Shown piece by piece: positions 39,358 to 41,982 of a DNA stretch of 46,403 nt (positions are counted from its first letter, which is position 1; each line of letters begins with the position of its first letter). This DNA is from Gracilinema caldarium (GTDB taxonomy: Bacteria; Spirochaetota; Spirochaetia; Treponematales; Breznakiellaceae): the NCBI RefSeq assembly GCF_029265695.1, contig NZ_JAJUHW010000021.1:1-46403 (forward strand). The letters are read 5' to 3'. Below the pieces are notes generated by a model. The model did no database searches. It was given only the letters and a program-made list of their open reading frames with translations, and was not told the DNA's origin. Position numbers and translations under genes: made by a program.

Positions 39358-41112
39358 TTATTCGGCTGATTGTCCGACTACTTTCTTTTCTATCTTTGCC
39401 CAGGTATCCCGCAATCCTACGGTTTTGTTAAATACCGGTTTTGTACCCGCGTTGTCCGGATCCCGGACAAAATATCCAATCCGTTCAAACTGAAATTTTT
39501 CTTCCGGTTTTGTGTCTGCGAGACAGGGTTCCCCATAGGCGGTTTGAATAACCTCGAGGGAGTTCGGATTAATGTTATCCAGGAAGGACCCGCCGGGGGG
39601 TACATCCATGGGCCGTTCAACCGCAAAGAGGTAGTCGTAAAGCCGGACTTCAATCGGGATGGCATGACGGACCGATACCCAGTGAATGGTGCCCTTTACT
39701 TTCCGGTTATCCTGCGCATTGCCGCCCCGTGTTTCGGGGTCATAGGTACAACGAACCGCAGTAATCTGGCCGGTCGCGGGGTCCTTATCAAAGCCGGTAC
39801 AGGTAACGATATAGCCGTAACGGAGCCGCACCGAGTTGCCTGGGTAGAGCCGGAAGTATTTAGGCGGGGGCACTTCCTGGAAATCGTCGGCCTCTATCCA
39901 GAGTTCCCGGCTAAATTGGACTTTTCGGCTCCCAGCAGAGGGGTCCTCGGGATTGTTGACCGCATCCAGCTCTTCTACTTTATCTTCCGGCCAGTTTTCG
40001 ATAATGAGTTTGAGGGGTTTCAGCACCGCCATTACCCGATTGGCCCGCTTATTAAGGTCCTCCCGCAGACAGTGTTCAAGGAGAGCGATATCAACCATGC
40101 TGTCGGTTTTGGCAATACCGATACGGGACATGAAGTCCCGAATTGCCTCAGGGGTGTAGCCCCGGCGGCGGAGACCAGCCAAGGTAGGCATACGGGGATC
40201 GTCCCAGCCGGAAACATATTTTTCGTTAACCAGCTGGAGCAGCCAGCGCTTGGAGAGCACGGTTCTGGTAATATTGAGCCGGGCAAATTCGATCTGGCGG
40301 CTGGGAAATACTTCGCATTCCCGGATAAACCATTCATAAAGGGGGCGATGGATTTCGTACTCCAGAGAACAGAGTGAATGGGTTATACCTTCTTTGGCAT
40401 CCGAAAGGGGATGCTGAAAGTCATACATGGGGTAAATGCACCAGGCATTGCCGACCCGGTAATGGGGTATCCGCCGGATTCGGTACATAACCGGGTCCCG
40501 CATGACCAGGTTTGGATGGGCCATATCAATTTTGGCCCGCAGGGTTTTTGAGCCATCGGGGAATTCACCGGCCCGCATCCGCGCAAAGAGGTCCAGGTTT
40601 TCTTGTACCGAACGGTTGCGGTAGGGGCTGTCTTTTCCCGGAGGGGTATGGGTGATGTTATTTTTATCTGCTACCGCGGTCCCCCGGTACACCCGGATTT
40701 CCTCTTCCGAGAGGTCATCCACATAGGCCTTGCCCTTCTTTATCAGTTTAACCGCCAGTTCATAAAGGTATTCATAGTAGTCCGAGGCATAGTATTCCCG
40801 GTCTTCCCAATCGTACCCAAGCCATTTAATGTCCCGTTTGATAGCTTCGACATAGGACATGTCTTCTTTTTCTGGATTGGTGTCATCGAATCGAAGGTTG
40901 GTTTTTCCGCCGAATTTTTGGGCCATGGAGAAATCGACACTAATGGCCTTTGCATGTCCGATATGGAGCCATCCATTTGGTTCCGGCGGAAAGCGGGTAT
41001 GAACATGGTCATATCGGCCGCTTTTGAGGTCCTCCGCAATGGCTTCGCTGATGAAATCGGTTGATTCCGGCTTTACATTTTCGTTGTCCGCTGCACTGGC
41101 TGTGGTTTCCAT
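39358..41112 (-). CDS. glnS: Glutaminyl-tRNA synthetase
   Basis: A 584-residue class I synthetase charging tRNA-Gln directly. Motifs: [17 protein letters not shown] (HIGH, residues 50-53), [20 protein letters not shown]-like [33 protein letters not shown] and VLSKRWL (KMSKS equivalent). The C-terminal anticodon-binding beta barrels include [14 protein letters not shown] and [11 protein letters not shown]. Length is slightly above the E. coli enzyme (554). AAGGAG is well placed before the ATG. Having GlnRS suggests tRNA-Gln need not be made by the amidotransferase route. Confidence 0.97.
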
Positions 41113-41179: not shown

Positions 41180-41212
41180 GCCTTGCCGGCACTGGCGGGG
41201 GAGCGGATGGGG
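41180..41212. repeat. 33-bp direct repeat, left copy
   Basis: The 33 bases starting GCCTTGCCGGCACTGGCGGG and ending GGATGGGG are identical to 41439-41471, 259 bases away. The match stops at both edges. The pair brackets a large palindrome. Confidence 0.8.
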
Positions 41213-41233
41213 CGGTAAGCCTTGAACGAAGCG

Positions 41234-41352
41234 GTTTTCTCTGGCGGCGCAGCATATCCTGGGGGTCCTGCCGGAAGAAAAAGCGGGGACCCCTTTATCC
41301 CCATTTTTCCTTCCGTCACCCCCCGTAGCAGTTCCGTGCCGCCAGAGAAAAC
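41234..41352. repeat. 119-bp imperfect palindrome (foldback structure)
   Basis: Outer arms GTTTTCTCTGGCGGC (41234-41248) and GCCGCCAGAGAAAAC (41338-41352) are perfect complements. Moving inward, GGGGG (41261-41265) pairs with CCCCC (within 41319-41324), CGGAAG (41272-41277) with CTTCCG (41310-41315), AAAAA (41278-41282) with TTTTT (41304-41308), and GGGGA (41285-41289) with TCCCC (41298-41302). The whole would fold into one long hairpin. No coding frame is convincing in this 414-base gap (41113-41526). It lies between the divergent glnS and bcp starts. A second inverted pair, GCTCCCCCGCTAG and the right direct repeat's CTGGCGGGGGAGC, matches at 12 of 13 positions. Confidence 0.75.
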
Positions 41353-41438
41353 ACAGGATCTATGAAAGTTGCCAGGGTCGGCTCCCCCGCTAGCCTTTAA
41401 CATAATAAGATCTGTTGTCGGCGAAGCTTGCACAAAAG

Positions 41439-41471
41439 GCCTTGCCGGCACTGGCGGGGGAGCGGATGGGG
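41439..41471. repeat. 33-bp direct repeat, right copy
   Basis: This copy is identical to 41180-41212. It lies 56 bases upstream of the peroxiredoxin start codon, so it would be within or close to that gene's promoter or leader. Confidence 0.8.
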
Positions 41472-41526: not shown

Positions 41527-41982
41527 ATGCTGCAAATTGGCGACAAGATGCCTACTTTTGAACTGCCGGATCAGGAGGGAAAACTGGTAAAATCATCGGA
41601 TTTTGCAGGGAAACCTCTGGTTGTATATTTTTATCCCAAGGATGACACACCTGGGTGCACCAAAGAAGCCTGTTCTTTCCGGGATTCTTTTAAAGAGTTT
41701 AAAGATCGGGGAATTACGGTTATCGGAATCAGCGCAGATACGGCCCAAGCCCACGGTAAATTTGCATCAAAATATAATCTTCCTTTTGTTCTCTTATCAG
41801 ACCCGGACAAATCGGTCATTAAAGCCTTTGGAGCCTGGGGAGAGAAAAAAATGTATGGAAAAAGCTACGAGGGAATAATACGGAGTACTTTTGTTATCGA
41901 TGCAGAAGGAAAGGTGAAAAAAGTATTCCCCAAGGTAAAACCGGAAGACCATGCGCAGGAGGTTCTGGCAGCCTTAGGATGA
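41527..41982 (+). CDS. bcp: Bcp/PrxQ-type peroxiredoxin
   Basis: A 151-residue thiol peroxidase that reduces hydrogen and organic peroxides using thioredoxin. It starts [19 protein letters not shown] and has [16 protein letters not shown] with peroxidatic Cys44 and the resolving Cys49 five residues later, the classic atypical two-Cys PrxQ arrangement. [20 protein letters not shown] and [12 protein letters not shown] are also typical. GAGGAGA lies eight bases before ATG 41527. An upstream extension to 41428 is only open frame through the repeat. Confidence 0.95.

Follow-up and report, generated by a model that had tools for sequence, protein, structure and literature searches.

A putative REPIN-like foldback element between glnS and bcp of Gracilinema and its apparently undescribed repeat family in termite-gut treponemes and relatives

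Introduction

The genes glnS and bcp of Gracilinema caldarium are divergent, and the 414-base gap between them contains a palindromic element with direct repeats. No credible gene is found inside the element among the ORFs examined, in line with a preliminary description that had seen nothing coding here. Which kind of element is this, and what are its repeats? The preliminary description had offered three readings—a MITE-like or foldback mobile element, a structured RNA, and a recombination-prone regulatory switch—of which the first fits best and the other two less well. The window referred to below is the whole stretch of DNA analysed, with a length of 46,403 nucleotides; G, C, L, and f numbers are our handles for genomes, contigs, loci, and families.

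Structure of the element between glnS and bcp

The left neighbour of the element is glnS (39358–41112, minus strand), an ORF of 584 aa with orthologues found by search, and the right neighbour is bcp (41527–41982, plus strand), an ORF for a peroxiredoxin. All features in between are given on the plus strand. The 33-bp direct repeat GCCTTGCCGGCACTGGCGGGGGAGCGGATGGGG occurs exactly at 41180–41212 and at 41439–41471, with the 259 bases from start to start that had been described, and the similarity of the two extends further, at 88% over 48 nt. The foldback features four stems: the outermost P0; P1; P2, which is GGGG paired with CCCC and carries a 3-nt TCC bulge; and the apical P3. The left repeat holds most of the left arm of P0, CTGGCGGGGGAGCGGA (41192–41207), which in the fold pairs with the right arm TCGGCTCCCCCGCTAG (41378–41393; 16 nt, 88%). 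The latter segment is an inverted match to both 33-bp repeats, and the inverted pairing earlier noticed for the right repeat is thereby confirmed. P1 is formed by GTTTTCTCTGGCGGC (41234–41248) and GCCGCCAGAGAAAAC (41338–41352). Between P1 and the core lies a semi-conserved internal loop region, with its 5' side at 41249–41260 and its 3' side at 41323–41337. The core hairpin GGGG-TCC-TG ... CA-CCCC (41262–41322), located by pattern match and model match, comprises P2, the bulge at 41266–41268, and the apical P3. Nested stems thus fold 41234–41352 into a palindrome, as had been reported; since P0 is present as well, the whole foldback spans approximately 41192–41393 and exceeds the reported 119 bp. 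For each strand of the 321-nt region, none of 100 dinucleotide shuffles folds as well as the real sequence (z −3.3 and −3.7).

Tandem copies at glnS–bcp across the genus

Of four genomes compared in the genus, three have the element at glnS–bcp. The bcp contig of G002 reads, in order, spacer, right repeat, a second and nearly whole element, and the bcp side, which this second element joins at the same point as does the right repeat of the window. The glnS-side contig of G002 stops inside the left repeat, as expected if the assembler broke at a repeat, and we infer that the first copy is located in the assembly gap. Because the second copy is nearly whole in G002, each 33-bp repeat of the window is the left end of one of two tandem copies, of which copy 2 is truncated: copy 1 begins with the left repeat, a spacer follows (41394–41438, by alignment to where contig C65 of G002 starts), and the right repeat begins copy 2, the remainder of which is absent in the window. 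Judged by sequence comparison, the window holds a complete copy 1 and a copy 2 cut to its left 33 bases, or else G002 gained copy 2. The repeats do not bracket the palindrome in the manner of a target-site duplication, which is ruled out by G002, where the right repeat starts a second copy.

In G003, the element is also present upstream of glnS, apparently in tandem. In G001, the module is absent at this locus and sequence resembling the left arms is retained, so that this is no clean empty site; loss is at least as likely here as an ancestral empty site. The copy number at glnS–bcp is best read as having changed by loss or gain of a tandem unit. Beyond this loss or gain, no support was obtained for a recombination-prone switch.

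A dispersed repeat family

The element is single-copy in the genome of the window, as judged by sequence search and covariance model, and the copies that the preliminary description had led one to look for are dispersed in relatives. DNA searches yield short inner-hairpin matches at several sites in G023 and G021, whose comparison gives the common core GGGG-TCC-TG ... CA-CCCC with stems that are different yet complementary. The pattern GGGGTCCTGN{28,58}CACCCC is present in 23 of 60 family genomes, often multiple times, and a reversed control pattern is rare, near zero, in the same 60. The covariance model was built from 42 copies—the window sequence itself among them—and matches the window at 41239–41346 (E 9.7e-16). 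It finds matches in 46 of 120 Breznakiellaceae genomes, with up to 32 matches per genome; the palindrome may add a weaker opposite-strand match, so that matches outnumber sites, and with a limited number of candidates scored per genome the counts are also to be read as "at least". G059 has 32 matches among 32 candidates scored, and the distinct sites amount to approximately 15 in G001 and 10 in G003.

A stricter pattern applied to 84,980 species returns 61 stretches, all in records titled Treponema, Spirochaetaceae, Spirochaetia, or Breznakiella. In two sister families of the order, the same bulged core is found inside a still larger foldback. The 297 genomes searched across the phylum yield a single match beyond the order, and a weak one. 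The larger foldbacks at L292–L299 (families f4 and f5) show a recurrent GGCGGCG ... GCCGGGTT ... CACGCCGC surrounding the core. No module occurs in the viral contigs or the plasmids searched, which speaks against carriage by phage or plasmid.

The feature in the window is probably, with confidence a little above even, a single member, in tandem with the truncated left end of another, of a family present in Breznakiellaceae and two sister families. This family consists of roughly 200-base dispersed fold-back repeats of termite-gut treponemes and relatives, with up to about 30 copies, and is apparently undescribed: no description of it was found in the literature. It is an abundant, order-specific family of unusual logic, in which the irregular centre is constant and the complementary arms change freely, and it marks copy-variable sites in termite-gut spirochetes.

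Constant core and covarying arms

Folding of homologues by covariance, which the preliminary description had proposed, reveals two-sided changes at 16 of 22 pairs in the alignment of 42 copies. The same alignment has 158 double-sided cells, where shuffling leaves 60 on average, and pairing falls from 83% to 46 to 54% when the partner is slid by one to three columns; the copies are related, hence these counts are not independent. In the 42 copies, P2 is invariant, as are the next two pairs above, an invariance partly built in, as the retrieval pattern required exactly that. With a slightly relaxed pattern, GGGGTCCTG is kept in 115 of 127 copies, and a GCC bulge predominates in one genome. P1 aligns poorly by column and was therefore assessed by swapping flanks between copies: a strong P1 helix forms with the own flank in 86% of 136 copies and with the flank of another copy in 7%. 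For the outer zone, a strong stem forms in 51% with the own flank and in 4% after swapping. Both sides of the internal loop are rich in A/T and semi-conserved. More than 100 natural variants are available for testing how palindrome arms remain matched.

Such covariation could also be the mark of a structured RNA family, small, processing, or regulatory, that was copied round the genome and that owes its complementary arms and its constant bulge and loop to selection on the RNA fold. The better-than-shuffled fold of the window region agrees with this, as does a module in the 23S–5S rRNA spacer of G206, which would be transcribed. The pair counts weigh against it. P3 comprises 1004 Watson–Crick, 16 G–T, and 28 A–C pairs and P1 comprises 1268, 31, and 14, respectively—a G–U share of 1.6% and 2.4% of G–T plus Watson–Crick pairs with no consistent excess over A–C. 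RNA genes usually have a higher share of G–U. The scarcity of G–T pairs favours DNA over RNA, the counts being indicative, as the copies are related. In an Rfam search, the best of 13 matches has an E of 0.01 and lies far under the gathering score; with nothing above that score, no known Rfam family is matched. The RNA reading of the preliminary description, borne out as regards covariation and the spacer copy and not as regards wobble pairs and the orientation to genes described below, is rather unlikely.

The outer repeats vary in sequence between and within genomes, and the inner bulged core stays constant. This is the reverse of what recognition of the ends predicts, and it counts against a MITE of the classical kind, whose terminal inverted repeats would be the only part on which a DDE transposase acts. 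No autonomous partner sharing the ends turned up among the loci examined. Terminal inverted repeats do occur in several genomes, the strong outer stem of about half of the copies points the same way, and at L016 a flanking 11-bp direct repeat, ACAAGGGGGCC, is one convincing target-site duplication, the sole case seen; even so, a classical MITE is very improbable. Several genomes have a purine-rich tail, for example AAGGGAAA, a few bases past the outer arm on the right (L013–L015, L031, L036, and G134 loci L139–L189).

Genomic placement and orientation

The modules are mainly intergenic (54 of 66 copies). Neighbouring modules within about 700 bp of each other, tallied by hand from model matches, are oriented +/- in 12 of 14 pairs, direct in two, and -/+ in none. 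These inverted dimers, together with the dispersed copies in relatives and the copy-number variation at glnS–bcp, agree best with the MITE-like or foldback option, which is right in kind. Orientation relative to neighbouring genes shows no significant bias (p 0.14 and 0.41), and a position bias 3' of genes, hinted at by 40 sites, is not significant with 136 copies.

Among the rRNA spacers compared, a full module is present in G206 only, so that these spacers failed as a source of a clean empty site; the long spacer of G069 has another hairpin sequence. In the G206 module (L229, 405–535), the conserved left flank TGTTCC is found inverted (GGAACA) on the right. The 23S–5S spacers of two rRNA operons of G069 (L282 and L283) measure 28 bp and about 250 bp.

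Neighbouring accessory genes

Nuclease genes of the Rpn type (PF04754) lie near modules in several genomes. At a distance of no more than about 250 bp from modules are three of five in G001, one of them bracketed on both sides, and two of three in G003, one of them bracketed; two Rpn-like genes of G134 have modules alongside. PF04754 is the commonest Pfam among 141 neighbours, with six members, three proteins having entered the set via the Rpn search. Besides Rpn, no gene family recurs among the neighbours, and defence genes near modules form no clear pattern.

Individual loci feature further arrangements. PF04754 genes are bracketed or preceded by modules at L059 (2313–3788) and L248 (2373–3633) in G001 and at L249 (1730–3094) in G003, and the Rpn genes of L248 and L249, which belong to two species, have the same purL-like gene as their neighbour. 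At L056 (2176–4594) in G001, VapBC-type genes flank an inverted module pair, with a third module downstream. L057 and L058 (G001:C1:1195000-1222500) contain an array in which large toxin-like genes are repeated with C-termini that vary, and seven modules in one orientation, several of these modules just upstream of repeated segments.

Taken together, the Rpn neighbours and the VapBC locus with its three modules would fit recombination or transposition sites for accessory cassettes: modules that bracket single genes such as Rpn and VapBC and mobilise them in an attC-like manner without being attC. Most neighbours are housekeeping genes, however, the orientation of modules round Rpn genes varies, and the Rpn loci are not all independent, as there are paralogues and orthologues among them. 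The module-rich genomes G059, G133, and G010 lack PF04754, and its absence from several module-rich genomes rules out Rpn as a universal mobiliser. Cassette sites of this kind are improbable. A wider version, in which an undescribed system of single-strand DNA recombination, almost restricted to the order, uses the modules as its hairpin sites, is a similarly long shot; this system would both spread the hairpins and move Rpn and VapBC cassettes by an enzyme that recognises nothing but the bulged core and the internal loop and leaves the stems free.

Foldback DNA and the mobilising enzyme

The best reading, which we hold somewhat more probable than its negation, is by analogy a foldback element that resembles REPINs, is non-autonomous, and acts as hairpin DNA. 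The element would spread or persist as a single-stranded DNA hairpin, recognised via bulge and internal loop by a trans-acting nuclease or transposase, much as RAYT (TnpA-REP) acts on REP/REPIN. Two causes would keep the arms complementary: the hairpin has to fold, and one arm can serve as template when the other is repaired. Recognition of a folded single strand is favoured by the requirement of E. coli TnpA-REP for a conserved stem bulge (PMC8266576).

The enzyme of the REP system itself is not shared by all carriers. No Y1_Tnp (RAYT-type) gene is present in the four Gracilinema-genus genomes (G000–G003) or in several high-copy genomes, which rules out Y1/RAYT as a universal mobiliser for this genus; six other module carriers have single Y1_Tnp genes, with no module within about 1.5 kb. 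G026 has 28 Y1_Tnp matches (e.g., L200 and L207) and no modules, and represents a separate expanded transposase group. If the modules are confirmed as mobile DNA without RAYT, this would point to an unknown hairpin-processing enzyme.

Comparison with known systems

MITEs and the larger bacterial foldbacks of the ERIC, RUP, and NEMIS type are short, non-coding, intergenic, and multi-copy and have inverted-repeat ends. The family described here shares these properties. However, its centre is constant and its ends are variable, which is the opposite of those systems.

Integron attC sites fold into a hairpin that contains an internal loop as well as extrahelical bases and whose terminal part varies. 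By analogy only, the modules resemble them in all of these, and some modules bracket accessory genes. In contrast to attC, the lower stem is variable in this family, and most copies lie outside cassette arrays.

REP/REPIN sequences mobilised by RAYT come closest in anatomy: dispersed intergenic palindromes, compensatory stem changes, a conserved stem irregularity, and inverted dimers in a fixed orientation (+/- and never -/+ among the close pairs), which are typical of REPINs. The family differs from them in size and build, with approximately 200 bases and several nested tiers compared with the 20 to 40 bp of REPs. It also lacks a tag at the hairpin foot: GTAG occurs in 6 and 10 of 136 flanks, under the chance figure of about 20, and CGTC, in 6 and 20, is not enriched. 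The element is therefore REPIN-like by anatomy, but it departs from REP/REPIN in two defining properties: the foot tag and, in the Gracilinema-genus genomes, the RAYT-type gene.
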